Assembly (NCBI GenBank): GCA_033032175.1
Contig: JAVKPJ010000052.1
Span: 1 to 64,000 of the forward strand
Origin: Saturnia japonica
Taxonomy: Eukaryota; Arthropoda; Insecta; Lepidoptera; Saturniidae
Length of the DNA: 64,000 nt
Reading direction: 5' to 3'
Shown here piece by piece: positions 2,856 to 34,815 of the stretch (positions within the stretch are counted from its first letter, which is position 1; each line of letters starts with the position of its first letter). A model generated the notes under the pieces. It saw nothing but the letters and a program-made list of their open reading frames with translations, did no database searches and was not told where the DNA came from. Made by a program: the position numbers and the translations under genes.

Positions 2856-2858
2856 GGG

Positions 2859-2935
2859 GGGGTGCGATGTCAGAAACCTCCTCGTGGTGCACCCCGGGCA
2901 ACGTCGACCAGTTTGGTCGGCGGCTAATATCTGAC
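2859..2935 (+). ncRNA. HDV-like self-cleaving ribozyme at the 5' end of E1
   Basis: The sequence folds as an HDV-type double pseudoknot. P1 is GGGGTGC with GCACCCC (2889-2895). P2 is GTCAGA with TCTGAC (ends 2935). P3 is ACC with GGT, closed by the loop TCCTCGT. The invariant-looking GGGCAAC follows P1. P4 is GTCGACC with GGTCGGC, and the J4/2 strand is GGCTAATA, whose C is the expected catalytic cytosine. HDV-like ribozymes are known at the 5' ends of R2 and several other non-LTR elements; they cleave just before the first P1 nucleotide. Here that is 2859, three G after the telomeric GGTT. Fold made by eye. Confidence 0.87.
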
Positions 2936-3173
2936 GCGCTCTTTCCGGTACCCCTCTGCTTATCAGAGGGGACTGTGGAGGAGCGCCGGCTGGAGGGCCG
3001 TTAAAAGCTCCTGGGTTGGCGTGTGAGCAGCGCACCCCAGTACCGGGCTGGGGCCGATGAGGGCTCAGTTTGAGCCCCAAGGGCCCAGTTCCGGGTAGCG
3101 GCTGGCGGGATCGGTTGTTTTATACCGATCCCGGCAGGCGTACTGCGAACTAGACGGTTCACGGGAGTTAAGA
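2936..3173 (+). promoter_or_regulatory. E1 structured 5' UTR (possible internal ribosome entry region)
   Basis: The leader between ribozyme and ORF1 is full of hairpins: CCCCTCT/AGAGGGG near 2951, CTGGG...CCCAG with the GTGTGAGCAGCGCAC core near 3010, GGGCTCA/TGAGCCC near 3061, and a long CGGGATCGG/CCGATCCCG stem near 3106. The last three recur in family TB with paired substitutions, for example GGGCTCA/TGAGCCC becomes GGACTCA/TGAGTCC at 28658-28674. Equivalent regions: 8494-8728, 12681-12919, 53712-53948, 56518-56754, 59438-59678, 62255-62491 (alpha). A ribozyme-cut RNA has no cap, so internal initiation is a reasonable guess, not shown. Confidence 0.5.
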
Positions 3174-5217
3174 ATGGACGCAAGATTTAAAAAATTATTA
3201 CCCCAGGAGGGTACCAGCTCTGCTGGAGAATCCCTCCCCGAGCCCAGCTCGGGCAGCCCCTCGTTCTCTGGGGGGGCAGAATTCTGCGTAGTTCTTTTAA
3301 AAATAACACGACTTTGGCACATGAACAACGGAAAACTGATTTGCCTATCGTTACGGTGGAGAGAAATCCGTCGCTGGATAAATTCTCGGTTCGACTTGGA
3401 CGGACAGTGTAGGGAGTTCGATCTCAACGACTAGCTTGGACAGTAGGAAGCGGTCGCTAGCTGACCATGGAGACGAGGTAGCTGTGGTGGAGAACCCTCC
3501 TGCCAAAGTCTCGACAGCAGGAAGAGGGAGATCCCGTGACAAGGGGTCGACTCGTGCAACGAAAGCTGGAAAGGCCGATGGGTCACATGACTGTGCTATT
3601 GCCACACCAATTAAGGATGAGCCGTCGGAAAGCGCCGATGTAGGAGTGCTCGGGGAATAGAGTTGCTCGACCCTGATAGTCTGAGGGCTCTTGCGAAGGA
3701 GAATGTTGATGAGATCCTTGAGGTTGCCAAAAGATCTGGCAAACCTCAAGGGTACCTACATCAAATCGCTCAAAGAAGCAGCATGGACGCTGCGAGAAGT
3801 AACGGCCACCGCTCTAACCGCACGGTGACTTCAGAGAATCTTCTCCTGCGCCGGAGACGGGGAGGCTGCGTCGTGAAGTCGAGGAGCTGAGGGCGGAACT
3901 TGCGTCGTCACGTGGTCGGGCGGAGTGTCCACCTCCGTCACCGTCACCATTGCCACAGGTGTTACCTCAGGCTTCACCGCAGGTGGATCTGGAGTTGTCC
4001 AGCGGAGTGACAGATATCCTGCCAAAGACACTGCTCAAGGTGCTGGATGGATACATGGACAGGATGGAGAGATCTCTCCGGCTGTCGTTGGGGAGATGAT
4101 ATCCGCACGTCTGGACGATCGTCTACCACCCTCCGAAGTGGTCCGCCCGCCCTTAAGTGCGGACAGAGGGTTGGCTCCGGGTCCTTCTGGATCTCAGCCT
4201 GTAGGGCGAAAGGCCGCGAGGTCCAAAGCTGCAAAGCCTAAGGCTTCGATGCCCATCCCTGATGTGACAACGCCAGTCCATCCACAGGAGGCCGTGCCTG
4301 CTGCTCCTTCCCAAGATCAGGCTGGAGCTGGATCGGGTGGACCCGTAACCAAGCGACGGAAAAAGAAGGAAAAGGCCTCATCGAATCTGAAGGCAACTGC
4401 GGGGGTGATTTCCACTCATAAGGGAATGCCTGGGCCCAAGCCCAAGCCTAAGCTTCCTTCGGCACCGCGCTCGGCTGCAGTGCTCCTTGCACTGCGGCCT
4501 GAGGCTGTGGCGGAGGGGCTATCGTATAGTGAGGCTCTACTTAGAGCACGGGACCGTCTCCCTTTGTCTGACCTGGGGATCGATAAAATATCTATTCGGT
4601 GTACTGCCTCGGGCAGCCGTATTATTGAGATACCGGGTGCCCGGGGAGAGAGAGGGGATCAATTAGCCCTAAAGCTAAGTGAGATTATGGCAGATGTAGC
4701 CACAGTGGCGAGGCCCATTAAAAGAGCAGACATCCGAATCATTGGATTGGAGGACTCCGTCTCGGCGCATGAAGTCGTAGCGGCAGCGGCGGCTAAAGGC
4801 GGTTGCGAGCCAACCCTTATTAGGGCTGGTGAGATACGTCCCTACGGGAGAGGCAATGGCGCAATTCACTTGTCACTCCCAGTCGCCGCTGCCAGGACAT
4901 TGGTGCAGTTAGGTCGTCTCCTTGTTGGCTGGAGTATGGCACGCGTCCGTCTCCTGCAAGGGGGGCCTTTGAGATGTTTCAGGTGTCTGGACGTGGGCCA
5001 TACCCGGCCCACATGCCCTTCGGCAGTTGATAGGGGAGGCCTTTGCTTCCGTTGTGGACAGCCTGGCCACAAGGCGCAAGAGTGCACAGCTGCAAAGCTG
5101 CACTGTGCCCTGTGTGCCGACGCCGGAAGGCAGGCGAAACATTTCATGGGAGGTGCGAAATGTAGGCCACCCGTCCAAAAGACGGGGAGAGCGCCTGCAG
5201 CGCCAAGACCCCCTTAG
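3174..5217 (+). pseudogene. E1 ORF1 (gag-like, three CCHC knuckles), frameshifted
   Basis: It starts with MDARFKKLLPQEGT. Frame is lost after about 3285, where the G run ending the structured block has 7 G; intact copies have 8. Readable in-frame pieces resume at 3436-3660 (RG-rich motif KVSTAGRGRSRD), at 3663-3740 (coiled-coil start), and at 3925-5217. The last piece is 430 codons and holds the linker, the GLEDSV-type RNA-binding-like domain and three zinc knuckles (CFRC...H...C, CFRC...H...C, CALC...H...C, about 4977-5165), ending TGRAPAAPRPP. The stop is followed directly by 3' UTR, with no ORF2. It would act as an RNA-binding nucleocapsid protein. Confidence 0.85.
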
Positions 5218-5467
5218 GGGGTTAGCGTAGACGATGGGCAGTACGTGGAGGTGTTTAACCGCCTCTTTCCTCTGCCCTTGCTGGACCAGGGGAGACGGGT
5301 CGGGGGGCCCGTCTTCCCATTGCACTGGCTCAGCCGTCTGGGAGACAGTTGGGGTTGTACCAGACTGTCTCTCTTTAGCGCCGGGGCCCGACTGGGGCCG
5401 GCCGCCGGGGCGTTGCGGCAGATTGCAACCGCAGTGCCCGCGCGCCCCACTATGGCGGCCGATGGTA

Positions 5468-5549
5468 CACCGTGGAGTTTTAGTGAGTAGGAGTCTCAAT
5501 AACCACTCGTCCCCCCGGGCGGGTGTGTACCCATGACGGGTTTCTCCAC

Positions 5550-5552
<3 letters not shown>
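5468..5552 (+). other. E1 3'-terminal three-stem RNA structure
   Basis: CGTGGAG pairs with CTCCACG and encloses GTGAG/CTCAC and CACTCG-type arms; the poly(A) follows directly. See the E5 and E7 entries for the comparison between families. Confidence 0.75.
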
Positions 5553-5613
<61 letters not shown>

Positions 5614-5617: not shown

Positions 5618-5695
5618 GGGGCACGAGTCAGGAACCTCCGCGTGGTGTGTCCCGGGCAACGTCAACCGCTTCACGGTCGGCGGCGAATACCTGAC
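5618..5695 (+). ncRNA. HDV-like ribozyme at the 5' end of E2
   Basis: P1 is GGGGCAC with GTGTCCC, a different pairing from alpha (GGGGTGC/GCACCCC), so P1 covaries apart from one G-U. P2 is GTCAGG/CCTGAC. The loop is TCCGCGT, followed by GGGCAAC. P4 is GTCAACCG/CGGTCGGC with one mismatch. J4/2 is GGCGAATA, identical at GGCGAAT to classical HDV. Confidence 0.85.
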
Positions 5696-5700
5696 AGGGG

Positions 5701-5702
<2 letters not shown>

Positions 5703-5757
<55 letters not shown>
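5703..5757 (+). repeat. 55-nt T tract in the beta 5' UTR
   Basis: A pure T run 7 nt after the ribozyme. The only counterpart is in the other beta copy (15484-15532); alpha, TA and TB lack it. In the RNA it is a long U-tract facing a poly(A) tail of similar length. ORFs reading Phe or Lys runs here are artefacts. Confidence 0.95.
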
Positions 5758-5758
<1 letters not shown>

Positions 5759-6171
5759 GGTTGCTTCCTCCGTCGTTACATCCCTCTGATTAGCAGAGGG
5801 AGTGACTGGACGGGGGATGGCGGGCCCGGCGAGCACTAACCTGCCGTCGGGCAGGTAAGTGGGGCTTTTCTCACTGCCTCCGTCATTCTCGTAATCCCAT
5901 CGAAGTGTCGTGGTCATGTCTCGCGGCTTCGATGGGACCGAGGGTCTCGGCTTCACCGCCCGGACCGCGAGGAAGAAAATCTCTATAAAAAATCACCCCA
6001 ATCCCAAGTGGCGGCGCACCACGAGGGGATGCGTGGCTGGGGGGAGTCCAGTCACGAGTGCGACCCCCGTCAGAGAACCGGCCGACTCTCTGACGGGTTA
6101 CGTTAGGCTTACCCAGGCACAGGGGCACTGCCTGGGTGGACCTTCTCTTCCCCCACTTCGTGGGAATAACA
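5758..6171 (+). promoter_or_regulatory. E2 5' UTR, TA-type leader
   Basis: It contains a CCCTCTGATTAGCAGAGGG hairpin, a block around 5890-6000 (CATCGAAGTGTCGTGG..., CTCTATAAAAAATCACCC) and GGCGGCGCACC. The same blocks occur in TA elements E7 (about 18370-18510), E11 and E12, so beta and TA share leader ancestry. No function is demonstrated; a role in uncapped translation is possible. Confidence 0.5.
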
Positions 6172-8003
6172 ATGAGTGAAACTAACCCAAAAATTTTAAC
6201 ACTTAGGTTTAAGGAATGTCGTGGAAATGTGGTGAGTGACGAGGGAAGTGCGGGGGGTCTAAAGCGGGTAGGGGAACCGCTTACATTAGATCCAGTAATA
6301 GCCCCGAAAGTAACAACGGCCCAGAGGGGTAGGGCACATGACCCAGGGTCTTCGGCGGGTCAGAGGCATGCAGATTCTGGCGATGCAGCTTCCTGGAAAG
6401 GGCCAGAGGTTGATGGGAGAAGGGAGCTAGTGAGGAGCTCTGGGTTGAGGAGGAACAGGCGATCGAAACCCTTGACCCAGATATGCTAAGAGCTCTGGCT
6501 GGCGAAAAGATTGCCAAGATATACGACGTCTGCAAGAAGTCTGGCAATCTAAAAGGGACGTCTATTAAAGACCTGAAGGGATCGGCCAGTGTCCTACAAG
6601 AGATTGTGTCCACGGCGTTGACACGCACTGTGACCGAGGAGACGCTTTGCCTTCGGCGCATGATATCGAGGCTCCGCCGAGAGCTCGTGCAGGTTAAGGC
6701 AGAGATTCTGGATATGCGTCAGGAGGCCGACGCGAGAAAGGAGGTTCCTCCACCATCTCCTGAGCCTCTGTCAGGGCCTCAGGGGCAGGAGTCCATAGCG
6801 GTTGCTATCCAGGGCCTGGAGCGTACATTTCAGAAGTCTTTTGGTGAGATGAACGCCCGCCTGGTGGTTTAGAGGACCGCTTAGTCCCAGTGACTCGTCC
6901 TCGTCCTCCTTTGGCCGCAGACAAGAGACCGACGGCTGCCAGCACCACTGGAACAAAGACTTCAGGTCCCAAGCCTGTGCCTCGCGCGATGCCTTCGCTC
7001 TGCGATGCCGGGCTGACGGCGTCCTCTCAAGTGCCTGTCCTGGGGATGGAATGGGCACGCCTTCCGGCACCGACGGATTCCGATGCGGCGTGGACCACGG
7101 TTGTGGCTCGTCGCAAAAAGAAGAAGAAGGTGGCGACACATTCGGTGCCAGCGGTGGCTACGCCGGCTGCTCCTGCTCTCCAGAAGGGTACACCTGGGCA
7201 AAAGCCGAAGCCTAAGCTCCCCTCGCCCCCACGCTCCGCAGTGCTTATAACGCTGCAGCCTGAGGCAGTGGCTCAGGGGGTGAGCTACAAGGAGGCCTTT
7301 CTGAGGGCACGATTGGCGTCTGACTTGCCCGCCCTGGGCATCGAGGATTTATCGGTCAGAGAGACCGCTACGGGAGCCAGGGTCATTGAGATCACCGGAG
7401 CCCAAGGCGCGGCACAGGCCGATAAGTTGGCACATTGCCTCCGGACAGCATTAGAGGGCGTGGCCACTATAGGCAGGCCAATGAAGCGTGGAACGTCCGC
7501 ATCGTTGGCCTGGATGACTCGGTGTCGAAGGAAGAGGTGGTGGCAGCTGTCGCGACCAAGGGAGGGTGCGCGACAGATGAAATTAGGGTGGGGGAAATCC
7601 AGACCTCGGGGGGACCTTGGGAAGAGTCCATATGTCCCTCCCTGTCACCGCGGCGAAAGTACTAGTTGAGGGGGGACGCCTCCTGGTAGGATGGAGTTCG
7701 GCCCGAGTCCATCTCCTGGAGCAAAAGCCTCTGAGGTGCTTCAGGTGTTTGGGCTTGGGTCATACGCGGCCTACTTGCCCGTCGACGGTTGATAGGGGGG
7801 GGCTGTGTTTCCGGTGCGGGAAGCCGGGTCACAGAGCGCAAGAGTGTGAGGCTGAGGCGCTTCATTGCGCCTACTGTGCCGATAGCGGGAGGCCAGCAGG
7901 CCATTACATGGGGGGCGTCAGCTGTCGGCCACCTCCCGTAAAAGGGCGGGTTCAGCCAGTGCTGAGTCCTCCGCTGGACATTAGCGCAGACGTTGGGCAG
8001 TAG
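6172..8003 (+). pseudogene. E2 ORF1 (gag-like), frameshifted
   Basis: Start chosen at MSETNPKILTLRF, matching the TA start MSETSKK. Segments: 6172-6420 (N-terminus with KVTTAQRGRAHDPG), 6483-6870 (coiled-coil region, LAGEKIAKIYDVCKKSGNLKGT...), about 6870-7480 (EDRLVPVTRP... linker and RNA-binding-like domain), 7435-7620, then 7617-8003 with three zinc knuckles (CFRC...C, CFRC...C, CAYC...H...C). Compared with E6 the breaks are single-base changes near 6415, 6868, 7480 and 7600. Gag role as for the alpha ORF1; no ORF2 follows. Confidence 0.85.
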
Positions 8004-8226
8004 GTGGGGGGTGCTTACACGCCTCTCTCCTCTGTCCTTGCTGGACCAAGGGGAACGGGTCGGGGGGCCCGTCTTCCCATTGCACTGGTTCAGCCGTCTG
8101 GGAGACAGTTGGGGTTTACCAGACTGTCTCTCTTTAGCGCCGGGGCCCGACTGGGGCCAGCCGCCGGGGCGTTGCGGCCGATTGCAACCGCAGTGCCCGC
8201 GCGTCCCACTATGGCGGCCGATGGTA

Positions 8227-8308
8227 CACCGTGGAGTTTTAGTGAGTAGGAGTCTCACATAACCACTCGTCCCCCCGGGCGAGTGGTACCCATGACGGGT
8301 TTCTCCAC

Positions 8309-8311
<3 letters not shown>
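8227..8311 (+). other. E2 3'-terminal three-stem RNA structure
   Basis: Same fold and nearly same sequence as the alpha copies (GTGGAG/CTCCAC, GTGAG/CTCAC), showing that alpha and beta share the 3' end despite different 5' leaders. Confidence 0.75.
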
Positions 8312-8362
<51 letters not shown>

Positions 8363-8364
<2 letters not shown>

Positions 8365-8416
8365 TTAGGTTAGGTTAGGTTAGGTTAGGTTAGGTTAGGT
8401 TAGGTTAGGTTAGGTT
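8363..8416 (+). repeat. TTAGG array (about 11 units)
   Basis: Perfect GGTTA repeat between E2 poly(A) and E3. Confidence 0.97.
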
Positions 8417-8493
8417 GGGGTGCGATGTCAGAAACCTCCGCGTGGTGCACCCCGGGCAACGTCGACCAGTTTGGTCGGCGGCTAATATCTGAC
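8417..8493 (+). ncRNA. HDV-like ribozyme at the 5' end of E3
   Basis: P1 GGGGTGC/GCACCCC, P2 GTCAGA/TCTGAC, P4 GTCGACC/GGTCGGC, J4/2 GGCTAATA. The predicted cleavage site coincides with the telomere/element junction, with no extra base. Confidence 0.88.
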
Positions 8494-8837
8494 GCGCTCT
8501 TCCCGGTACCCCTCTGCGTATCAGAGGGGACTTTGGAGGAGCGCCGGCTGGAAGGCCGTTAAAAGCTCCTGGGTGTGGCGTTGAGCAGCGCACCCAGTAC
8601 CGGGCTGGGGCCGATGAGGGCTCAGTTTGAGCCCCAAGGGCCCAGTTCCGGGTAGCGGCTGGCGGGATCGGTTGTTTTATACCGATCCCGGCAGGCGTAC
8701 TGCGAACTAGAAGGATTGAAATTTGATGATGGACAAGGCAAAGTTAAAAAGTTTAATACCCCAGGAGGGTACCCGCAAGGGAGAATCCCCCCGAGCATAG
8801 TCGGGCTGCCCCACGTTCTCTGGGGGGGGCAAAATTT

Positions 8838-10787
8838 TTGCGCGACTCCGATAAAACTACGACTACGGCAAGAACACGGGAAACCGATTCCATCAAGAAA
8901 ATGACGACTACGGACAAACGCACACTGGCTGCTGATCAGCCTGTTGTTCGGATTCTCAGGGATCTCTCACTGGACCGTTTTTCGGTCAGACACTGGTCTG
9001 AGAGCCCCGATATTACAACGACGGAAGCTGTGTCTGACAGGAAGCGGACACATGAAGATAAACCGGGTGTTACTGGTGGGGACGCTACGCCTAGTAAGGT
9101 AACAACGGCCCAGAGAGGAAGAGCACGTGACCGGGGTGGTTCAACTAGGTCAACGAGTGTTCCAGGGGGTGCGGTTGAGTCGCGGGATGAGAGTTCCTCT
9201 GTCCGCGGTAACACTCTGCAGAAGTTACCTGCAGAGCCGCCTCTAGACTTTGAGGCTCTCGACCCGGAGAGCCTGAGGGCTCTGGCGACAAGTAAAGTTG
9301 ACACTATCCTTGAGGTATGCAGAGTGTCTAGCAACCTCAAGGGTACGTGCATAAAGGCGCTGAAGGAGGCAGCTAGAACCCTCCAGGAGGTGACGGCAAC
9401 TGCGCTTAGGCGCACGGTGGCAGAAGAGACTTTACTCTTGCGGCGAGAAACGCGGAAGCTTCGCGAAGAAGTGGTAGAGCTGAAGACGGAGCTCGCTGCT
9501 CTACGTGGCAGGGCAGATGCTCTACCTCTGCCACCAGTGCCGGCACTGCGGCCGGAGTCTTCCAGTCAGGAAGAACATACTTTGCCGCAGAACGTGCAAG
9601 ACGTATTGGCGGATCACATGGTGCGCATGGAGCGGTCGCTTCGGCTCTCCTTGGGTGAGGCAATGTCCGCCCAGATTGAGGCGTTGGGAGACCGTTTCCT
9701 GCCCGCTAAGGTGGTCCGCCCACCCTTGAATGCAAACCGCAAGGCGACTCCCGGGCCCACAGTACCCAAGCCTGTAAGGGCTAAGACTGCAGGACCTAAG
9801 TTGACAAGGTCTCTCCCTGCGGTGACTACCAGTCCGAAGGGAGTACACTGCGAACCGCTCCCTGGATCCGCTCCTGCTCCTGCTCCTCCAGTGATGCCTG
9901 ACGGGGAGTGGACAATTGTAGCTCGTCGCCGACGCCGAAACAAGAAGCCCACTAAGGCTTCGATGGTAGCGGCTTCCATCCCACCTGGAGGCAAGCCTAA
10001 GCCTAAACCAAGGGCGAAGCTCCCTTCGACACCGCGCTCGGCTGCGGTTGTTATTACGCTGCAGCCGGGAGCTGTGGCGGAGGGATTTAGCTATAAGGAC
10101 GCTCTTTTAGAAGCGAGGGACCGAGTGAGTATGGCAGAGCTCGGTATAGAGGATTTCTCGTGGCGCCCCTCTGCCACTGGATCCAGGATCGTAGAGATTC
10201 GGGGCGATCAAAGTTCGGAGCAGGCCGATAGGCTGGCGGAGCGCCTCCAGGAAGAGTTGTCGGGGTTGGCTGTGGTGACTCGGCCCGTTAAAAGGGCCCA
10301 TATCCGAGTCATAGGACTGGATGAATCCGTCTCGGTGGAGGAAGTCGTTGCGGCTGCAGCGACTAAGGGAAGTTGTGAGCCAGCTCTAATCAGGGCTGGC
10401 TCTATTAACACCTATGGCAGGGGCAGCGGCGCAGTCCATCTTGCGTTACCTGTAGCCGCTGCCAAGGTGGTGGTGGAGGCGGGTCGCCTCCTAGTCGGGT
10501 GGAGTGCGGCTCGTGTGCGCCTCCTGGAGGGTGGGCCCATGCGGTGTTACCGCTGCATGGAGGTAGGCCACACGCGTCCGCTCTGCCCATCAACGGCGGT
10601 CAATAGAGGAGCACTGTGCTTCCGATGCGGAGAGCCTGGCCACAAGGCGCAAGCGTGCACTGCTGAAAAGCTGCACTGCGCCTTGTGTGCCGACGCCGGA
10701 AGGCCGGCGGGGCACTACATGGGGGGTGCCCAATGTAGGCCCCCTGAAAAGAGAGGAAGGGCACCGCCTGCACCACCACCTCCGTAG
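8838..10787 (+). CDS. E3 ORF1: gag-like nucleic-acid-binding protein, longest intact gag-only ORF (649 codons)
   Basis: The likely original start is the ATG at 8729 (MDKAKLKSLIPQEGT), but a deletion of a few bases inside the structured block puts it out of frame with a stop near 8800; the open frame resumes at 8838. Order in the protein: TTT-rich segment; LRDLSLDRFSVRHW motif (about 35-48); KVTTAQRGRARDRG basic motif; coiled-coil-prone region (about 145-225, RALATSKVDTILEV...LRRETRKLREEV); LGDRFLPAKVVRPPL linker; basic RRRRRNKK stretch; RNA-binding-like domain (VITLQPGAV..., then VIGLDESVSVEEV); three zinc knuckles (C570-C583, C594-C607 both CX2CX4HX4C; C614-C633, CX2CX8HX6C); Pro-rich tail. 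This layout is that of ORF1 in R1/TRAS/SART-type elements, which packages its RNA. No ORF2 follows. Confidence 0.92.
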   Translation: MRDSDKTTTTARTRETDSIKKMTTTDKRTLAADQPVVRILRDLSLDRFSVRHWSESPDITTTEAVSDRKRTHEDKPGVTGGDATPSKVTTAQRGRARDRGGSTRSTSVPGGAVESRDESSSVRGNTLQKLPAEPPLDFEALDPESLRALATSKVDTILEVCRVSSNLKGTCIKALKEAARTLQEVTATALRRTVAEETLLLRRETRKLREEVVELKTELAALRGRADALPLPPVPALRPESSSQEEHTLPQNVQDVLADHMVRMERSLRLSLGEAMSAQIEALGDRFLPAKVVRPPLNANRKATPGPTVPKPVRAKTAGPKLTRSLPAVTTSPKGVHCEPLPGSAPAPAPPVMPDGEWTIVARRRRRNKKPTKASMVAASIPPGGKPKPKPRAKLPSTPRSAAVVITLQPGAVAEGFSYKDALLEARDRVSMAELGIEDFSWRPSATGSRIVEIRGDQSSEQADRLAERLQEELSGLAVVTRPVKRAHIRVIGLDESVSVEEVVAAAATKGSCEPALIRAGSINTYGRGSGAVHLALPVAAAKVVVEAGRLLVGWSAARVRLLEGGPMRCYRCMEVGHTRPLCPSTAVNRGALCFRCGEPGHKAQACTAEKLHCALCADAGRPAGHYMGGAQCRPPEKRGRAPPAPPPP

Positions 10788-11039
10788 GGGGGGTAGCGTA
10801 GACGTTGGGTGTTAGGAGGGAGTGTTTTTCGCCTCCTTCCTTCACCTTTGCTGAACCAAGGGGAGACGGGTCGGGGGGCCCGTCTTTCCATTGCACTGGT
10901 TCAGCCGTCTGGGAGACAGTTGGGGTTGTACCAGACTGTCTCTCTTTAGCGCCGGGGCCCAATTGCGGCCGGCCGCCGGGGCAACGCGGCTGATTGCACA
11001 CCGCAGTGCCCGCGCGCCCCACTATGGCGGCCGATGGTA

Positions 11040-11123
11040 CACCGTGGAGTTTTAGTGAGTAGGAGTCTCACATAACCACTCGTCCCCCCGGGCGAGTGTG
11101 TACCCATGAAGGGTTTCTCCACG

Positions 11124-11125
<2 letters not shown>
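11040..11125 (+). other. E3 3'-terminal three-stem RNA structure
   Basis: GTGGAG/CTCCAC closing stem, GTGAG/CTCAC arm and CACTCG/CGAGTG arm immediately before poly(A). Confidence 0.75.
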
Positions 11126-11152
<27 letters not shown>

Positions 11153-11154
<2 letters not shown>

Positions 11155-11196
11155 TTAGGTTAGGTTAGGTTAGGTTAGGTTAGGTTAGGTTAGGTT
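11153..11196 (+). repeat. TTAGG array (about 9 units)
   Basis: Perfect repeat between E3 poly(A) and truncated E4. Confidence 0.97.
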
Positions 11197-11197
11197 A

Positions 11198-12539: not shown

Positions 12540-12598
12540 GGTTAGGTTAGGTTAGGTTAGGTTAGGTTAGGTTAGGTTAGGTTAGGTTAGGTTAGGTT
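12540..12598 (+). repeat. TTAGG array (about 12 units)
   Basis: Perfect repeat between E4 and E5. Confidence 0.97.
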
Positions 12599-12603
12599 GG
12601 GGC

Positions 12604-12680
12604 GGGGTGCGATGTCAGAAACCTCCTCGTGGTGCACCCCGGGCAACGTCGACCAGTTTGGTCGGCGGCTAATATCTGAC
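12604..12680 (+). ncRNA. HDV-like ribozyme at the 5' end of E5
   Basis: P1 GGGGTGC/GCACCCC, P2 GTCAGA/TCTGAC, loop TCCTCGT, GGGCAAC, P4 GTCGACC/GGTCGGC, J4/2 GGCTAATA. Confidence 0.87.
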
Positions 12681-12919
12681 GCGCTCCTCCTGGTATCCCT
12701 CTGATTATCAGAGGGGACCATGGAGGGGCGCTGGCTGGAGGGCCGTTAAAAGCTCCTGGGTGTGGCATGTGCGCGGCGCACCCAGTACCGGGCTGGGGCC
12801 GATGAGGGCTCACTTTTGAGCCCCAAGGGCCCAGTTCCGGACAGCGGCTGGCGGGATCGGTAGCTTTTATACCGGTCCCGGCAGGTGTACCGCAAACTTG
12901 ACGTAGATCCGTAGCTAAG

Positions 12920-15024
12920 ATGGAAGGTGCAAAATTAAAAAAAGAACTACCCCAGGAGGGTACCAGCTCCTCAAGAGCTGGAGAATCCCTCCCCGAGCAT
13001 AGCTCGGGCTGCCCCGCGTTTTCTGGGGGGGGCAGAGTTTTGCGCAGTTCGAAAACACAAACAACGACCATGGCGAGCACAAGGACACATGATATCCAAC
13101 AAACGAAGACATTGGCAACCCCAATACGGACAACTGATTCTCCACGTGTTGTTCTGGAGAAGAAAGCGGAGCTTGACTCTTTTGCGGTCAAGCACTGGGC
13201 TATTGCTGACAGCGCTGGTAGCACAACGCCTTTGGCGTTTGATAACAGGAAGCGGCCGCGTCTGGTTGATGTGACTAGTGGGAACGGAGTGGATACTCCT
13301 CCCTTCAAAGTCAACACAGCCCGAAGAGGAAAGGCGCACGACCCTGGGTCATCGGCCGGGTTACTCGTGCGACTGCTGTTGGGGAGGCAGGTCTCCCTGC
13401 CGCACCGTCCTGCAGTGTTGAGGCGTGTGACGAGGCGAAAGTGGAAGTGCTCGATGACATCGAGTTGCTCGATCCTGCAAGGCTCAGTGCGCTTGCTAAC
13501 GAGAAGGTGGACGCGATCCTTGAGGTTGCCAAGAGATCTGGCAACCTCAAGGGTACTTTCATCAAGTCTCTGAAGGAGGCGGCCTGGACCTTGCAGGAGG
13601 TTACATCTACTGCCCTGACTCGTACTGTGTCGAGCGAAACGCTTCTCCTCCGCAGGGAGACACGTAGGCTGCGCCAGGAGGTCACGGAGCTCAGGGCGGA
13701 GCTTGACGCACTGCGTAGATCAACCACGGCGCTACCATTGTCGCCAGTGATAGGGGCGCAGCCAGAACTGCAGCCGGAGTCCCAGCCGGAGCCTTCCTGC
13801 CAGGAACTTGACGTCTTGCCGAAACCTATGGCTAACTTTTTAGATAAACACTTGGTGGGGATGGAGCGGTCGCTCCGACTATCTTTGGGGGAGGTTATTA
13901 CGGCCCGCATAGAGGGCTTGGAGGACCGTCTCCTCCCCGTTAAAGTGATCCGACCACCATTGGCGGCAAATAAGAAGGTGTCAGGCTCTGCAGCTCCTAA
14001 GGTTGCAAGATCCAAGACTACGCGATGCAAGTCTCCAGAGCCTCTGGAAATGGAGTTGGTCCCACCTCCGGTACCGACTTCGGCTCCAGGCACCGTTCCT
14101 GTTCCAGGACCTGAGAAAGATGGCTGGACCACTGTGTCCCGCCGTCATAAGCGCAGAGGTAAAAAGGCACCAGCTGCGGCACAGTCGGTTGCTGCGGCAA
14201 AAGCTCCGTCTTCAAATGGGAAGAAGGCGCCTGGGAGTAAACCCAAGAAGGGGCTCCCTTCTACGCCGAAATCGGCTGCAGTGATTGTTACACTGCGGCC
14301 TGAGGCGGTGGAGAGGGGAGTTACTTACAAGGCGGCCCTTATGGGGGTGAGCCGGGCTGCGGTAGCCGAACTCGGCATAGAGAACCTGTCGCTTCGCCCT
14401 GCGGCCACGGGATCTAGAATCATACAGATTCCTGGCGCCCGTGGTCGGGAGCAGGCTGACGGGTTGGCCCAAAAGCTCCGGGAGGCGTTGGCGGATGTGG
14501 CCACTGTGGCCATACCGGTGAAAAGAGCAAACGTCCGGGTCATAGGGCTCGACGAGACGGTTACGGTGGCAGAAGTCGTTGCTTTGGCGGCGGCGAAAGG
14601 TGGCTGTGAGCCATCGCTTATTAGGCCGGGCGAGATACGCCCCTACGGGAGGGGCAGTGGAGCGATCCACCTGTCGCTCCCAGTCGCCGCTGCCAAAGCA
14701 CTGATGGAATCTGGTCGCTTCCTCGTGGGCTGGAGCTCTGCTCGCGTTCGCTTGTTGAAGGGGGGACCACTTAGGTGCTATCGGTGCCTTGACGTTGGCC
14801 ATACCCGGCCTATTTGTACGTCGGTTGTCGACCGAGGGACATTGTGTTTCCGGTGCGGGGAACCTGGACACAAGGCACAGCAGTGTACAGCTAAAAAGCT
14901 GCATTGTGCCCTGTGTGCCGACGCCAATAGGCCGGCGGATCATTATATGGGTGGCGCCAAGTGTAGGCCTCCCGACCAAAAGAAGGCACCGCCTACAGAC
15001 TCGAGCACCATAGGGGATGCGTAG
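12920..15024 (+). pseudogene. E5 ORF1 (gag-like), one main frameshift
   Basis: Start MEGAKLKKELPQEGT at 12920. The N-terminal frame is readable to about 13370 (PQEGT block with an 8-G run, SFAVKHW motif, KVNTARRGKAHDPG). After a shift at about 13370-13440 the second frame, about 13441-15024 (527 codons), carries the coiled-coil region, a Pro/Glu linker, the RNA-binding-like domain (VIGLDETVTVAEV) and three zinc knuckles near the end. It ends DSSTIGDA. About 700 residues if undisturbed, similar to TA ORF1. Confidence 0.88.
12949..13035 (+). other. E5 structured coding block (PQEGT module)
   Basis: Codes for PQEGTSS...GESL...GCPAFSGGG. As RNA it forms a GGAGGG/CCCTCC hairpin with an inner AGCTC/GAGCT stem, then CCGAGC/GCTCGG, then TGCCCC/GGGGCA. 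See the E16 copy for details. Confidence 0.65.
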
Positions 15025-15263
15025 ACGTTGGGCAGTAGGTGGGGGTGCTTAACCGCCTCTTTCCTCTGCCCTTGCTGGACCAAGGGGAGACGGGTCGGGG
15101 GGCCCGTCTTCCCATTGCACTGGTTCAGCCGTCTGGGAGACAGTTGGGGTTGTACCAGACTGTCTCTCTTTAGCGCCGAGGCCCGACTGGGGCCGGCCGC
15201 CGGGGCGACGTGGCAGATTGCAACCGCATTGCCCGCGGCGTCCCGCTATGGCGGCCGATGGTA

Positions 15264-15346
15264 CACCGTGGAGTTTTAGTGAGTAGGAGTCTCACATAAC
15301 CACTCGTCCCCCCGGGCGAGTGTGTACCCATGACGGGTTTCTCCAC

Positions 15347-15349
<3 letters not shown>
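15264..15349 (+). other. E5 3'-terminal three-stem RNA structure (gag-only reference)
   Basis: Reference for the alpha/beta 3' end. Closing stem CGTGGAG/CTCCACG. First arm GTGAG-TAGGAGT-CTCAC. Second arm CACTCG-TCCCCCCGGG-CGAGTG. Against TA (GTGGGG/CCCCAC; GTCAG/CTGAC) and TB (CATGGGG/CCCCATG; CCGG/CCGG) both sides of the stems change together. A 3' UTR stem-loop is needed for mobility of the Bombyx telomeric element SART1, so a role as the ORF2 recognition site is plausible. Confidence 0.8.
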
Positions 15350-15385
<36 letters not shown>

Positions 15386-15394: not shown

Positions 15395-15472
15395 GGGGCA
15401 CGAGTCAGGAACCTCCGCGTGGTGTGTCCCGGGCAACGTCGACCGCTTCACGGTCGGCGGCGAATACCTGAC
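15395..15472 (+). ncRNA. HDV-like ribozyme at the 5' end of E6
   Basis: P1 GGGGCAC/GTGTCCC, P2 GTCAGG/CCTGAC, P4 GTCGACCG/CGGTCGGC (the mismatch present in E2 is paired here), J4/2 GGCGAATA. Confidence 0.88.
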
Positions 15473-15479
15473 AGGGGGG

Positions 15480-15483
<4 letters not shown>

Positions 15484-15532
<49 letters not shown>
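15484..15532 (+). repeat. 49-nt T tract in the beta 5' UTR
   Basis: Same position as in E2, followed by CTTTTCTGGGG. The length differs from the 55 T of E2. Confidence 0.95.
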
Positions 15533-15957
15533 CTTTTCTGGGGTTTCTTCCTCCGTCGTTACATCCCTCTGATTAGCAGAGGGAGTGACTGGACGGGGCG
15601 ATGGCGGGCCCGGCGAGCACTAACCTGCCGTCGGGCAGGTAAGTGGGGCTTTTCTCACTGCCTCCGTCATTCTCGTAATCCCATCGAAGTGTCGTGGTCA
15701 TGTCTCGCGGCTTCGATGGGACCGAGGGCCTCGGCTTCACCGCCCGGACCGCGAGGAAGAAAACCTCTATAAAAAATCACCCCAATCCCAAGTGGCGGCG
15801 CACCACGAGGGGATGCGTGGCTGGGGGGAGTCCAGTCACGAGTGCGACCCCCGTCAGAGAACCGGCCGACTCTCTGACGGGTTACGTTAGGCTTACCCAG
15901 GCACAGGGGGCACTGCCTGGGTGGACCTTCTCTTCCCCCACTCTCGTGGGAACAACA
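15533..15957 (+). promoter_or_regulatory. E6 5' UTR, TA-type leader
   Basis: Same hairpin and TA-like blocks as E2 (5758-6171); no gene seen. Confidence 0.45.
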
Positions 15958-17798
15958 ATGAGTGAAACTAACCCAAAAATTTTAACACTTAGGTTTAAGG
16001 AATGTCGTGGAAATGTGGTGAGTGACGAGGGAAGTGCGGGGGGTCTAAAGCGGGTAGGGGAACCGCTTACATTAGATCCAGTAATAGCCCCGAAAGTAAC
16101 AACGGCCCAGAGGGGTAGGGCACATGACCCAGGGTCTTCGGCGGGTCAGAGGCATGCAGATACTGGCGATGCAGCTTCCTGGAAAGGGCCAGAGGTTGAT
16201 GAGGAGAAGGGAGCTAGTGAGGAGCTCTGGGTTGAGGAGGAACAGGCCATCGAAACCCTTGACCCCGATATGCTAAGAGCTCTGGCTGGCGAAAAGATTG
16301 CCAAGATATACGACGTCTGCAAGAAGTCTGGCAATCTAAAAGGGACGTCTATTAAAGACCTGAAGGGATCGGCCAGTGTCCTACAAGAGATTGTGTCCAC
16401 GGCGTTGACACGCACTGTGACCGAGGAGACGCTTTGCCTTCGGCGCATGATATCGAGGCTCCGCCGAGAGCTCGTGCAGGTTAAGGCAGAGATTCTGGAT
16501 ATGCGTCAGGAGGCCGACGCGAGAAAGGAGGTTCCTCCACCATCTCCTGAGTCTCTGTCAGGGCCTCAGGGGCAGGAGTCCATAGCGGTTGCTATCCAGG
16601 GCCTGGAGCGTACATTTCAGAAGTCTTTTGGTGAGATGAACGCCCGCCTGGTGGTGTTAGAGGACCGCTTAGTCCCAGTGACTCGTCCTCGTCCTCCTTT
16701 GGCCGCAGACAAGAGACCGACGGCTGCCAGCACCACTGGAACAAAGACTTCAGGTCCCAAGCCTGTGCCTCGCGCGATGCCTTCGCTCTGCGATGCCGGG
16801 CTGACGGCGTCCTCTCAAGTGCCTGTCCTGGGTATGGAATGGGCACGCCTTCCGGCACCGACGGATTCCGATGCGGCGTGGACCACGGTTGTGGCTCGTC
16901 GCAAAAAAGAAGAAGAAGGTGGCGATACATTCGGTGCCAGCGGTGGCTGCGCCGGTTGCTCCTGCTCTCCAGAAGGGTACGCCTGGGCAAAAGCCGAAGC
17001 CTAAGCTCCCCTCGCCCCCACGCTCAGCTGCAGTGCTTATAACGCTGCAGCCTGAGGCAGTGGCTCAGGGGGTGAGCTACAAGGAGGCCTTTCTGAGGGC
17101 ACGATTGGCGTCTGACTTGCCCGCCCTGGGCATCGAGGATTTATCGGTCAGAGAGACCGCTACGGGCGCCAGGGTCATTGAGATCCCCGGAGCCCAAGGT
17201 GCGACACAGGCCGATAAGTTGGCACATTGCCTCCGGACGGCATTAGAGGGCGTGGCCAACTATAGGCAGGCCAATGAAGCGTGTGGACGTCCGCATCGTT
17301 GGCCTGGATGACTCGGTGTCGAAGGAAGAGGTGGTGGCAGCTGTCGCGACCAAGGGAGGGTGCGCGACAGATGAAATTAGGGTGGGGGAAATCCAGACCT
17401 CGGGGAGAACCTTGGGAAGAGTCCATATGTCCCTCCCTGTCACCGCGGCGAAAGTACTCGTTGAGGGGGGACGCCTCCTGGTAGGATGGAGTTCGGCCCG
17501 AGTCCATCTCCTGGAGCAAAAGCCTCTGAGGTGCTTCAGGTGTTTGGGCTTGGGTCATACGCGGCCTACTTGCCCATCGACGGTTGATAGGGGGGGGCTG
17601 TGTTTCCGGTGCGGGAAGCCGGGTCACAGAGCGCAAGAGTGTGAGGCTGAGGCGCTTCATTGCGCCTACTGTGCCGATAGCGGGAGGCCAGCAGGCCATT
17701 ACATGGGGGGCGTCAGCTGTCGGCCACCTCCCGTAAAAGGGCGGGTTCAGCCAGTGCTGAGTCCTCCGCTGGACATTAGCGTAGACGTTGGGCAGTAG
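15958..17798 (+). pseudogene. E6 ORF1 (gag-like), two frameshifts
   Basis: Start MSETNPKILTLRF. The frame is open from 15958 to about 16905, where a six-A run (five A in E2) shifts it. It continues in the 16871-17260 frame, shifts again near 17260 (GGCCAACTATAGG), and continues in the 17274-17798 frame with the GLDDSVSKEEV domain and three zinc knuckles. In the N-terminus EEKGASEELWVEEEQAIETLDPD is intact, which shows where E2 is broken. About 613 residues if undisturbed. Confidence 0.88.
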
Positions 17799-18021
17799 GT
17801 GGGGGGTTTACAGGCCTCTCTCCGCTGTCCTTGCTGGACCAAGGGGAGACGGGTCGGGGGGCCCGTCTTCCCATTGCACTGGTTCAGCCGTCTGGGAGAC
17901 AGTTGGGGTTGTACCAGACTGTCTCCCTTTAGCGCCGGGGCCCGACTGGGGCCGGCCGCCGGGGCGTCGCGGCCGATTGCAACCGCAGTGCCCGCGCGCC
18001 CCACTATGGCGGCCGATGGTA

Positions 18022-18104
18022 CACCGTGGAGTTTTAGTGAGTAGGAGTCTCACATAACCACTCGTCCCCCCGGGCGAGTGTGTACCCATGACGGGTTTCT
18101 CCAC

Positions 18105-18106
<2 letters not shown>
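18022..18106 (+). other. E6 3'-terminal three-stem RNA structure
   Basis: Same stems as E5; followed by poly(A). Confidence 0.75.
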
Positions 18107-18153
<47 letters not shown>

Positions 18154-18167: not shown

Positions 18168-18245
18168 GGGGTGCGAGTCAGGAACCTCCGCGTGGTGCAT
18201 CCCGGGCAACGGCGGCCGCTTCTCGGCCGACGGCTAATACCTGAC
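18168..18245 (+). ncRNA. HDV-like ribozyme at the 5' end of E7
   Basis: P1 GGGGTGC/GCATCCC (one G-U), P2 GTCAGG/CCTGAC, loop TCCGCGT, GGGCAAC. P4 is GC-rich (GGCGGCCG with CGGCCGAC), unlike the alpha P4. J4/2 is GGCTAATA. The fold is retained although P4 has changed on both sides. Confidence 0.86.
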
Positions 18246-18665
18246 GGGGGGGCGACGTTTACCGTTCATCTTCTATTTAGAGGGTTCGAAGACGTAGCGT
18301 GTTGGCGGGCTCGGCGTGCACTCACACTGCCGTCGGGCGGGCAGGTTGGACAACTTGTTCGGCTTGTCGCCGACGATCTCGTAATCCCATCGGAGTGTCG
18401 TGGTCATGTCTCGCGGCTTCGCATGGGACCGAGGGTCTTGGCTTCACCGCCCGGACCGCGAGGAAGAAAACCTCTATAAAAAATTACCCTAATCCCAAGC
18501 GGCGGCGCACCGCGAGGGGATGCGTGGCTGGTGGGAGACCAGTCACGAGTGCGACCCCCGTCAGAGAACCGGCCGACTCTCTTGACGGGTTACGCTAGGC
18601 TTACCCAGGCACAGGGGGCACTGCCTGGGTGGACCGTTACTTCCCCCACAATCGTGGGAACAAAA
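18246..18665 (+). promoter_or_regulatory. E7 5' UTR (TA leader)
   Basis: No ORF of note. It contains CTCTATAAAAAATTACCC, GGCGGCGCACCGCGAGG, a CCGTCAGAGAACCGGCCGAC segment near 18560, and CCCAGGCACAGGGGGCACTGCCTGGG, which can fold as a hairpin (near 18605). Shared with beta, E11 and E12; lacks the beta T tract. Confidence 0.45.
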
Positions 18666-20842
18666 ATGAGCAAACCTTTTAAAAAAACCTCTGTAAATAT
18701 TGTAAATATACCTAGTTTTAAGAAGGACGAGGACGGTGGCTCCACTAGTGGAGTTACGTGCGAGGAGAGAAAAGTGGATGGTCGCGAAGGTGAATTCAAC
18801 CCCGTTGTGGCTATCGTAAGGGACCCTTCACTAGACAGGTTGTCAGTGTGTAGCGAGTCAAGCGAGGCCTCTATGGTGACGGTAGGGTCTTCTGAAAACC
18901 CTCTGTCTGGCGCTGAGGACGCTCCGCCAAGCTCCTTCTGGCGGAAAAGGAAGGTCGAAGGTGCTGACCAGACGCAAACGCCAGTTTCTATCCCCAAAAA
19001 GGGTAGGGGGCGGCCCCCAACTACAGGAGAATATGTGGGGTTGGCAAAGGTGAAGGAAGATTATATCCGGAAGAAAGAGGAGTTGCTTCGCTTAACAGCT
19101 GAAGAAGAGTTGGCGGAGGAGGCATCGCGGGCACGATACAACAGGTCCGCTAAAGAGATTGCCACTGCTCCCGGAGGAAGAGCTCTCCTCCCAATTAAGT
19201 GAAAGGGTGCTGGGCGACGTGGAGGTGATCCTCAAAGTCGCCAAAAAATCGGCGAACCTAAAAGGCACTTTCCAGAAGGCCCTCAAGGATGCGGCTGTGT
19301 CCATTAAGGATGCAGTGGAACAATACCGCAGTCGGACCACCACCGAGGAGTTGGCGAGGGTCCAAGCAGCGTACGCAAGGCTAGAGGAGACGAACACCAG
19401 ACAAGCGGAAGAACTGGCAGAGCTTCGGAAGGAGCTCACGTTAATGAGAGCAGACCTGAATAAGGTCCGCCAGCCATCGCCAGGAGCTGAAATCTCTCTA
19501 GTCACAGCGACAGAGACAGGACTGGACCCTTCAACTTCTCCGGCTCCAAGGAGGAGGGAGGAGTTTCCGCCGTTGCCAGGGAGGCCTCGGAGCGAGAATT
19601 CTGACATTGACCAGAAGTTCGAGCGCATACTCAACATAATGAGTGCTCGCTTCGAGGCCTTGGAGGATAGGCTTCTCCCAGAAAGACAACTCCGCCCTCC
19701 ATTGGCGGCGGATAGAAAGGCTGCGCAGATTGCGAAAACGAGAGCACCTAAAAGTGGTCCTCCGCGGCAGCCTGAATCCCGGCAAGCAGCTGAGAAGAAT
19801 GGCAGAGAAAAAGCGGGGAAAGCCGGTTCCAAGTCGACGACTACACCCGCCCCTCAAGCTTCCTACAGCGAGAAGGTGGCCACTCCTAAACCCACTCAAG
19901 GGGAGTGGGTGTTAGTAGGTAAGGGGGGTAAGGCCACAAAGAAGAATAAGAAAAAGGCGGCTACAAAAGCACCTCCAAAAAGGAACAGAGCCCCCAAACT
20001 TCGCACCTCCAAATCCACTGCGGTGGTTATAACACTTCAACCTGAGGCTGCGAAGAGGGGCATCACCTACAGGGAGGTGCTAACGAAAACATGGGAGCAG
20101 GTCGACCTTGGCGCTCTAGGCATTGAGGGCGTCAACTATAGAAGGGCGGCAACAGGGGCTGCCCTCTTAGAGGTTCCAGGTGCCACGAGTGATCTGCAAG
20201 CAGACGCCCTTGCAGAAAAAAATTAGGGCGTCCTTTCCAGCTGAGGATATACGAGTAACCAGGCCGATGAGGTGTGCAGACGTGCGCATCTCAGGCCTTG
20301 ATGACTCCGTTACAGTGGAGAAGCTAATTGCCGCCGTTGCACGTGCTGGGGAATGCCCCCCAGAGCACGTTAAGGCAACTGATCCACGCCCCAGCTTTGA
20401 TGGGGCTGGAACGGCCGTGGTTTCGTGCCCAGTGACGGTGGCCAAAAAACTCGGCGACGGCCGTAAGCTATTGGTGGGTTGGGTGTCGGCGCGAGTAAAA
20501 GTCTTGCAGCCCCGCTCACAGAGGTGTTTCCGCTGCCTTCAGGCCGGTCATCTGGGGGCAAAATGCTCCTCAGAAGTTGACTGCAGTGCACTCTGCTATC
20601 GCTGCAGTCAACCCGGCCATAAGGCGGCAGGCTGTACAGCGGACCCGCATTGTTTAATATGTGCAGGTGCGGGTAAACCTGCTGGGCACCGGGTGGGCGG
20701 CAAGACATGCGTTGCGTCGTCGCCACCCAAGAAAAGAAGGAGGGGGAAGAGGGGAAAAGCCCCGACACAGCCCCTGACCTCGTCGGCTGTTCCTAAAGCG
20801 CTGACGACGGTCCAGACGGAGGAGATGGAAGAAGCCAATTAA
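18666..20842 (+). pseudogene. E7 ORF1 (gag with AT-hook-like motif and three zinc knuckles), two frameshifts
   Basis: Start MSKPFKKTSVNIVN at 18666. Segments: 18666-19170, about 19159-20220, 20180-20842. The second break is in an A run (GCAGAAAAAAATTAG, about 20216-20222), a likely sequencing-error site. Order: N-terminus; RDPSLDRLSVCSESS motif; AT-hook core RGRP at residues 114-117 within KKGRGRPPTTGEY; charged helix; coiled-coil region (ERVLGDVEVILKVAKK...); ALEDRLLPE linker; RNA-binding-like domain (SGLDDSVTVEKL); three knuckles (CFRC, CYRC, CLIC). The AT-hook is absent from gag-only ORF1s. TAA at 20840-20842 is two bases before the ORF2 ATG. Confidence 0.9.
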
Positions 20843-20844
20843 TA

Positions 20845-24003: not shown

Positions 24004-24240
24004 AAACGGCCTGCGGGTGTCGGACGCGGGCACGTCCTTCGCCCTTGCAGCCAATGCACAGGCCCGAGGCGAGGCGCATCAGTGTTCGATGCGCCCCTCG
24101 TAGGTTCGTCGGAGGGTGTCACACATCTCGACCCCTCAGACCGCTGAAGGTGGCCCCTTATGAGGGGCCTACACCCGTCGGGCGAGTAGAAGTAATGCGC
24201 AAGCTGTCCCTACTCCCCGGCCAAATGGGTGAAAGAGGAA

Positions 24241-24329
24241 CACCGTGGGGTTTTAGTCAGTAAGAGTCTGACATACCCCTCTCGAGCTGCCCGGCTCGAG
24301 AGGCGGATCCATGTAGGATTTCCCCACGT
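24241..24329 (+). other. E7 3'-terminal three-stem RNA structure (TA reference)
   Basis: Closing stem CGTGGGG (24244-24250) with CCCCACG (24322-24328). Arm 1 GTCAG (24256-24260) with CTGAC (24268-24272). Arm 2 CTCTCGAGC (24279-24287) with GCTCGAGAG (24294-24302), a perfect 9 bp. The poly(A) starts two bases later. Confidence 0.82.
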
Positions 24330-24352
24330 AAACAAAAAAAAAAAAAAAAAAA

Positions 24353-28417: not shown

Positions 28418-28768
28418 GGCGTGATGAGGTACTTGTATCTCTGATCTGCAGGGGGTGGACCCACAGGCGCAATACAGCTCTTTCCTTTCGGAGAGAGCCT
28501 TAGCCTGCCACCTCAAGACCGTAGTGCGTGGTGAAGAGCCACATCCTTCTCGAGGTGACCCTGTCTCGCTGAACACTACGGATCTAGGCTGGAGAGCCGA
28601 TAAACACTCCTGGGTGTGGCGTGTGAGCAGCGCACACAGTACCGGTTGGGGCCGACGAGGACTCAAGTTGAGTCCCAAGGGCCCATTTCCGGACAGCGGC
28701 TGGCGGGACTGGTGGTCTTCATACTGGCCGGCAGGCGTACTGCGAACTGGAGGAGGAGTTAAAAAAGG
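28418..28768 (+). promoter_or_regulatory. E10 5' UTR
   Basis: The first about 180 nt are TB-specific. From about 28600 the leader matches alpha (CTGGGTGTGGCGTGTGAGCAGCG..., GGACTCA/TGAGTCC, GGGACTGG...). No ribozyme-like fold was recognised. Confidence 0.45.
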
Positions 28769-28897: not shown

Positions 28898-28908
28898 ACT
28901 TAAATACG

Positions 28909-31276: not shown

Positions 31277-31284
31277 TGATCAGT

Positions 31285-34771: not shown

Positions 34772-34794
34772 AAAAAAAAAAAAAAAAAAAAAAA

Positions 34795-34809: not shown

Positions 34810-34815
34810 CTGCGG

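Follow-up and report, generated by a model that had tools for sequence, protein, structure and literature searches.

Gag-only elements in a TTAGG telomeric array of Saturnia japonica as a candidate non-autonomous branch of a SART-like LINE class

Telomeric long interspersed elements (LINEs) of the HeT-A type, which keep gag and have no pol, are known from Drosophila, a genus that lost telomerase repeats. There, HeT-A sits beside TAHRE, a less common relative that has a similar gag together with a pol; gag-only 'HTR' half-elements are described as well, and gag-only forms arise in several groups (PMC5537684, PMC10088271). Here we analyze a 64,000-nucleotide stretch of the moth Saturnia japonica (contig JAVKPJ010000052.1, positions 1 to 64,000, forward strand; hereafter the window), in which nine elements carry a Gag open reading frame (ORF1) and no ORF2, the frame for endonuclease and reverse transcriptase (RT). 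Taken as a whole, these elements are best explained, with a probability of about 0.77, as a gag-only branch, old and non-autonomous, within a SART-like class of telomeric LINEs, which we call TC; the branch is presumably mobilized in trans.

Several other described systems come close. SART1Bm of Bombyx mori inserts between T and A of TTAGG, ends in poly(A) and encodes an RNA-binding ORF1 protein, and SART1 proteins mobilize an EGFP/3' untranslated region (UTR) donor in trans (PMC7265360). In the fungus Magnaporthe oryzae, MoTeR1 has an RT-less partner, MoTeR2, that shares its 5' and 3' ends, and the two form head-to-tail arrays in telomere repeats (PMC7367193). HAL1, or half-L1, is a LINE derivative that codes for ORF1p alone and has several origins (PMC5753468). 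Short internally deleted elements (SIDEs) of R2 and R2/R1 combine a 5' ribozyme with the parental 3' end and originated by internal deletion; the R2/R1 hybrids appear to exploit the machinery of another element (PMC3414825).

The gag-only elements of the window match each of these in part. Like HeT-A they have gag without pol, are telomeric and are multi-copy. HeT-A attaches to chromosome ends and Drosophila has no telomerase repeats, whereas the gag-only elements lack such end attachment, lie inside TTAGG at the SART-type site and carry a 5' hepatitis delta virus (HDV)-like ribozyme. HeT-A belongs to the Jockey clade; the present elements are R1-like. The arrangement thus resembles HeT-A beside TAHRE, but within a TTAGG telomere. 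SART1Bm differs in having ORF2. That frame is absent from the gag-only elements and present in TC and in the window class TA, so the gag-only elements are derivatives, not full members, of SART-type LINEs; SART1 itself was compared through its published description. With HAL1 they share LINE descent, loss of ORF2 and retention of ORF1, as judged from their relationship to TC and from an ORF2 scar in two types, whereas HAL1 derives from mammalian L1. HAL1 is not known to be telomeric or to carry a ribozyme. R2 SIDEs differ in being short and in targeting ribosomal DNA. They are also not known to carry a gag gene.

The original prediction called such a division of labor unusual for TTAGG telomeres, which is fair for insects; gag-only SART or TRAS elements were not recognized in any description in the open-access literature searched. 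Beyond insects, the nearest precedent within a telomerase-type telomere is MoTeR2, in which an unrelated 786-bp sequence with no obvious function replaces the RT, while MoTeR1 uses a restriction-enzyme-like endonuclease (PMC7367193). If a gag-only lineage arose independently in TTAGG telomeres that still house its RT-bearing relatives, it would offer a second natural case in which to ask why RT is lost from telomeric LINEs and Gag retained. The components that a trans-mobilization experiment would need are defined here: ribozyme, Gag, 3' RNA fold and a candidate partner class.

Nine gag-only elements in a head-to-tail array

The window holds 17 poly(A)-tailed elements, head-to-tail on the plus strand, with TTAGG tracts between most of them. 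Nine of the 17 (E1, E2, E3, E5, E6, E14-E17) are gag-only, each 2.7-2.9 kb long, and share one layout: a 5' HDV-like ribozyme, a single Gag ORF, a 3' UTR, poly(A) and no ORF2. The sequence of E17 stops at 64000, the window end, with its 3' half outside view. The ORF2 elements of the window belong to two classes, TA and TB. The catalogued elements are:

2856..5613 (+), E1, gag-only (alpha)
5618..8362 (+), E2, gag-only (beta), TA-like 5' UTR with a 55-nt T tract
8417..11152 (+), E3, gag-only (alpha)
12597..15385 (+), E5, gag-only (alpha)
15396..18153 (+), E6, gag-only (beta), near-copy of E2
18168..24352 (+), E7, full-length TA; ORF2 (endonuclease and RT) at 20797-24003
28418..34794 (+), E10, TB class, ORF1 and ORF2
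34795..41061 (+), E11, TA class
41062..47149 (+), E12, TA class
47165..53575 (+), E13, TB class
53636..56422 (+), E14, gag-only (alpha)
56441..59315 (+), E15, gag-only (alpha), keeps an ORF2 scar
59348..62159 (+), E16, gag-only (alpha), near-copy of E14
62179..64000 (+), E17, gag-only (alpha), near-copy of E15, cut by the window end

E3, the only gag-only copy with an unbroken ORF1, serves as reference:

8363..8416 (+), telomeric repeat (AGGTT)11, directly followed by the 5' end of E3
8417..8494 (+), HDV-like ribozyme at the 5' end (Rfam HDV-F-prausnitzii, E 1.5e-4)
8901..10787 (+), ORF1 (Gag), 628 amino acids from the first in-frame ATG at 8901
10846..11125 (+), 3' UTR, strongly folded (z-score -5.25 on 10820-11125)
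11043..11125 (+), terminal 3' RNA fold, common to gag-only elements, TA, TB and TC
11126..11152 (+), poly(A) tail, then GGTTAGG
11153..11197 (+), telomeric repeat (AGGTT)9 after E3

The nine elements that the original prediction listed, each with a three-knuckle ORF1, a 5' end, a 3' UTR and poly(A), are indeed seen in the window, and their layout stands. They reduce to six types, since E2/E6, E14/E16 and E15/E17 are near-copies at 98.0-98.7% identity (98.0% for E2/E6, 98.7% for E14/E16), and frameshifts interrupt ORF1 in the eight copies other than E3; part of these frameshifts may be sequencing error. The 5' UTR types by which alpha (E1, E3, E5, E14-E17) and beta (E2, E6) are distinguished are also found on ORF2-bearing elements.

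E3 ORF1 is open from stop to stop at 8757-10787, and Pfam recognizes zf-CCHC in it. Three zinc knuckles are present in all eight gag-only copies that extend to the knuckle region. In an AlphaFold model of E3 Gag (mean predicted local distance difference test score 67; confident parts used only), the predicted protein comprises a helical coiled-coil-like region, two RRM-like domains and the three knuckles. The model matches RRM folds, among them hnRNP A1/A2 bound to telomeric DNA; this predicted similarity is one of RRM fold and no indication of telomere binding. Queries with ORF2 protein (whole TA, two TB pieces) gave zero same-strand matches in the nine elements and two antisense ones, at E 0.50 and 0.61. 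A scan of viral contigs with Gag found no match.

Gag bears the mark of selection. In all 15 pairs of the six types, the in-frame ratio of nonsynonymous to synonymous differences (pN/pS) is 0.40-0.52, with 95% upper bounds up to 0.59, while reading those alignments in either of the other two frames gives 0.96-1.53. Synonymous divergence (dS) between types is 1.03 at the lowest and reaches saturation at the highest; dN/dS is 0.14-0.32 where computable. Judged by these substitutions, Gag is an old protein that was used and kept under purifying selection. Part of this history could precede the loss of ORF2, and the parent class therefore matters.

Could the nine be dead copies whose number grew through recombination at telomeres or duplication in the assembly, and not through retrotransposition? 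E14-E15 and E16-E17 resemble a block of two elements that was duplicated, with about 0.8% substitutions and 22 indels of one or two bases per pair, and this block, the E2/E6 near-copies and the eight broken ORF1s all favor such an origin. Tails and spacers differ among the types, however, 5'-truncated gag-only copies occur elsewhere in the assembly (L033, L037, L038; L numbers denote inspected regions), and purifying selection on Gag requires repeated use of the protein. We consider this origin very unlikely for the set.

Class TC and the loss of ORF2

We searched the whole assembly (580 Mb, 402 contigs, the window being contig C52); each search scores about 40 matches, and copy numbers are lower bounds. 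The E3 3' UTR returned 2380 unscored first-look candidates, TC-type copies included. The 38 regions inspected represent 39 of the 40 scored matches, the fortieth being the window itself, and 37 of them entered a census of matches of at least 200 nt (L013, with no upstream sequence, and one 119-nt partial match were excluded). Among 65 distinct 3' UTR copies, all 62 of gag type (at least 90% identity) have gag at most 130 nt upstream and no ORF2 there, and all three of TC type (84-86% identity) have ORF2 directly upstream. On contigs longer than 1 Mb, eight of 12 scored gag-only 3' UTR matches have a contig end within 100 kb; the other four lie farther in, on C1 (4.44-4.45 Mb), C6 (3.54 Mb) and C25 (0.26 Mb).

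Four TC copies were characterized:

L047 2739-8779, TC1, full element with ribozyme fold, an open 703-amino-acid ORF1 frame and ORF2 in two frames
L048, TC2, 5' end not recognized
L049 about 4861-6592, TC3, internally deleted TC copy
L050, TC4, alpha/TB-like 5' UTR, cut by the edge of the examined stretch

The TC1 ribozyme scores 33 bits, under the cut-off; its 5' UTR is TA/beta-like and its 3' UTR is 85% identical to that of the gag-only elements. TC1, TC2 and TC4 represent a pol-bearing relative with related gag and UTR, a counterpart of TAHRE, and the idea that no ORF2-bearing relative exists at all was ruled out once the assembly search revealed TC. A TC 3' UTR query found at least 42 matches, of which the surroundings of few were inspected. 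TC3 retains the 5' UTR, the end of ORF2 and the 3' UTR, and in this resembles R2 SIDEs.

The 3' end ties the gag-only elements to TC. Their last 94 nt are identical to TC at 90-93 of 93-94 positions (96-99%), and the upper 180-186 nt of the 3' UTR at 75-79%. This upper part is common to gag-only elements and TC and absent from TA and TB. Its hairpins show 98.5% of cells paired, with six of 83 pairs changed on both sides; TC1 and TC3 do not keep one of the small helices. The terminal fold shared by all four classes comprises 22 pairs, eight of them changed on both sides in the comparison with TA/TB, with 99.7% of cells paired against 24-55% in slid controls.

A remnant of the last codons of ORF2 follows the Gag stop in two types, E14 and E15. 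The E14 remnant and the corresponding spacer of E3 lie at:

56075..56120 (+), E14, scar of the TC ORF2 end, 37 of 46 nt matching L048 8195-8240
10807..10851 (+), E3, spacer at the scar position, approximate limits, homologous to the E14/E15 scar

The next-best place in TC2 reaches 25 matches to the E14 scar, and shuffled sequences reach at most 28 (n=300) or 30 (n=200). At the same place E15 matches 31 of 47 positions ungapped, with shuffles up to 29. On this comparison the ORF2 scar is recognizable in two of six types, E14 and E15. A clear scar in all six is not supported, as only these two rise above chance; the stretch in the other four has diverged too far to be distinguished from it. The E3 spacer aligns at 31 of 44 positions, and its ungapped best of 23 against shuffles of up to 26 is at chance level.

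ORF1 trees, in which rows were kept if they covered at least 250 of 480 core columns, place TC on the gag-only side, apart from TA, TB, the relatives P0003-P0009 and fused insect ORF1+ORF2 proteins (support 96 and 91). The first tree with TC omitted E16, E17, P0069, P0079, P0081 and P0093, and the second additionally P0004, P0074, P0080, P0088, P0110 and P0115. Without TC, the split between gag-only elements and the TA/TB side has support of 100 and 99 in two trees. Approximately unbiased (AU) tests reject beta ORF1 with TA (p 7e-5) and alpha ORF1 with TB (p 7e-4), and with these groupings an origin of the gag-only elements in the window's own TA or TB copies. TC with TA (p 9e-42) or with TB (p 7e-5) is rejected as well. 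Alpha and P0001 form a supported group (97-99 across three trees); P0001 is 50% identical and terminates as E3 does, and P0002 is the sister of TC (97-98). None of 15 fused ORF1+ORF2 proteins, taken from the 120 of 298 ORF2 relatives listed, groups with gag-only ORF1s. The six named relatives from one search are all Lepidoptera, and a profile search from the gag-only side added no proteins to the nine of the first search.

From these comparisons the gag-only elements look like deletion derivatives of TC, a class located elsewhere in the assembly. The original prediction had stated that they are not simple deletions of the TA copies at hand, which the AU tests bear out; they still look like deletion derivatives, of another class. 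In the ORF1 phylogeny that it suggested, the gag-only side stands apart from TA and TB at supports of 91-100, with or without TC. The suggested assembly-wide search for ORF2-bearing copies revealed TC, with a related ORF1 and 3' UTR, and none of the 62 gag-type copies examined has ORF2 directly upstream. The gag-only state is old, as predicted, given six types under purifying selection, and it is propagating, given the 2380 candidates and the 62 copies that all follow gag.

As an alternative, the copies could be recent, repeated internal deletions of ORF2-bearing elements, with no lasting gag-only lineage; the E14/E15 scar, the internally deleted TC3 and a mosaic at L019 demonstrate that rearrangements of this kind occur. 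We judge that account very unlikely for the nine elements, because a single layout is common to six types whose dS runs from 1.0 to saturation, and the ORF1s of the three TC copies compared reach only 26-49% identity with those of the gag-only elements and are not the matching ORF1s that recent deletions would leave. At this identity, the loss of ORF2 is evidently not recent.

Several observations weigh against an old branch from TC. The scar position of E1, E2, E3 and E5 aligns at 25-31 of 44-45 positions, and the ungapped best is within shuffle range. The 62 gag-type copies were drawn from the 40 top-scoring candidates among 2380, together with their neighbors, a sample biased to E3-like 3' UTRs, and include L019 (2840-6285). 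There an ORF2 fragment (TA residues 11-233, 54%) abuts the last 69 Gag codons, so that ORF1 and the ORF2 start of one class are followed by the Gag end and 3' UTR of an E3-type element. Beta groups with TC and P0002 at support of 65-69, beside the supported group of alpha and P0001, and two losses of ORF2 are therefore possible; one loss with later exchange and two losses both fit the trees. A clade of the window gag-only elements alone is not rejected in one AU test (p 0.098) and is rejected in another (p 0.005); with P0001 added it is not rejected (p 0.18 and 0.49). Finally, gag-only types with about 50-75% identity in ORF1 agree at 90-100% in their ends. Recombination may have homogenized the 3' ends, which on this pattern do not date the loss of ORF2.

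Element ends and a possible route in trans

Rfam HDV-type models match all nine gag-only 5' ends (E < 0.5), and two of these matches exceed the gathering score; E3 reaches 42.7 bits, under the 44-bit gathering score. Over 12 five-prime ends the fold has 25 pairs, five changed on both sides, with 99.0% of cells paired. The predicted structure is an HDV-like double pseudoknot (P1, P1.1, P2, P3, P4) with a catalytic C. E17 lacks the catalytic C owing to one indel.

Gag-only copies interrupt TTAGG tracts in a constant phase, at the T/A site that is the insertion site of SART1 (PMC7265360). GGTT directly follows poly(A) in seven of the eight copies with a 3' end, and GTT in E14; 5' ends are preceded by ...GGTT, to which E1, E5 and E16 add a few bases. 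Tails are longer in gag-only elements than in TA/TB (mean 40.8 versus 24.8, p 0.0037; p 0.0053 with one copy per near-duplicate pair), the E7 tail being taken as 22 where its pure A run is 19. Longer tails would suit use in trans; tail length also depends on age and assembly.

On the non-autonomous reading, the ribozyme would liberate the RNA 5' end from a read-through telomeric transcript, and Gag would coat the element RNA. The ORF2 protein of another element would then nick TTAGG and copy the RNA, starting at the folded 3' end and poly(A). TC is the most likely donor of this protein because the gag-only 3' end matches TC almost exactly. Gag was probably kept through packaging its own RNA in cis, and service to partners is possible too.

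Alternatively, the ORF2 protein of TA or TB might mainly serve the gag-only elements. These classes are the ORF2 elements of the window and have the terminal 3' fold and insertion site in common with the gag-only copies. Their terminal stretch is only 74-81% identical, however, against the 96-99% of TC, and of these classes TC alone shares the upper 3' UTR. We regard TA or TB as an unlikely main donor.

The original prediction pointed to a HeT-A-like division of labor. In a full partnership of this kind, gag-only Gag would be the main telomere-targeting or packaging protein of the whole community, so that TA, TB or TC would rely on it while the gag-only elements rely on their RT. Gag is conserved despite the loss of RT and gag-only elements make up more than half of the array; in Drosophila, TART and TAHRE require HeT-A Gag to reach the telomere (PMC5537684). 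Against this, TA, TB and TC each have their own ORF1, and that of TA likewise shows purifying selection (dN/dS 0.17, E7/E11). Such a partnership seems to us doubtful. So, to a like degree, does its wider form, a two-component TTAGG system convergent with HeT-A/TAHRE/TART that would give Gag to TA/TB/TC, receive RT in return and freely exchange 5' and 3' RNA modules.

Mosaic 5' modules and minor observations

The 5' UTR types cross classes, one occurring on TA, TC1 and beta and the other on TB, TC4 and alpha. Within classes, element ends are much more similar than bodies: TA copies are about 58-78% identical in ORF1 and 91-99% in ORF2 (E7 versus E11), and TB bodies are 46-80% identical with both ends at 96-97% (E10 versus E13). 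By these identities the TA and TB copies are mosaic elements. This modular pattern probably arose by template switching or gene conversion, and L019 fits such an origin.

A T tract of about 50 nt lies just after the ribozyme in the 5' UTR of E2 (5703-5757) and E6 (15484-15537), and could pair with the poly(A) tail. A motif of about 80 nt (CCCCAGGAGGGTACC...TCTGGGGGGG) lies upstream of ORF1 in alpha gag-only and TB elements, two per TB copy, and may fold, with weak support. Its positions are:

3199, 8757, 12948, 28794, 29027, 47651, 47876, 53974, 56782, 59704 and 62516

The CCCCAGGAGGG motif upstream of ORF1 was not supported as a covarying RNA (three of 28 pairs changed on both sides; covariation term positive).

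Among the 120 of 298 matches listed, database RTs are 49-69% identical to TA ORF2, those named being mostly from Lepidoptera, with two ants and one bee; TA ORF2 also matches the TRAS1 endonuclease 1wdu (E 5e-9). In TA, TB and TC, the RT region has antisense matches to the Rfam microRNA family mir-3389 (RF03780), which score up to 67 bits, under the 75-bit cut-off; the family may derive from such LINEs:

22732-22800, 25184-25252, 33159-33225, 39424-39492, 45524-45592 and 51948-52015 (minus strand), matches in the window
L047 7218-7291 (minus strand), match in TC1

Upstream of the first TTAGG tract, an RNase H domain (PF00075, E 1e-11) at 1402-2553 on the minus strand marks an oppositely oriented element that may be TRAS-like.

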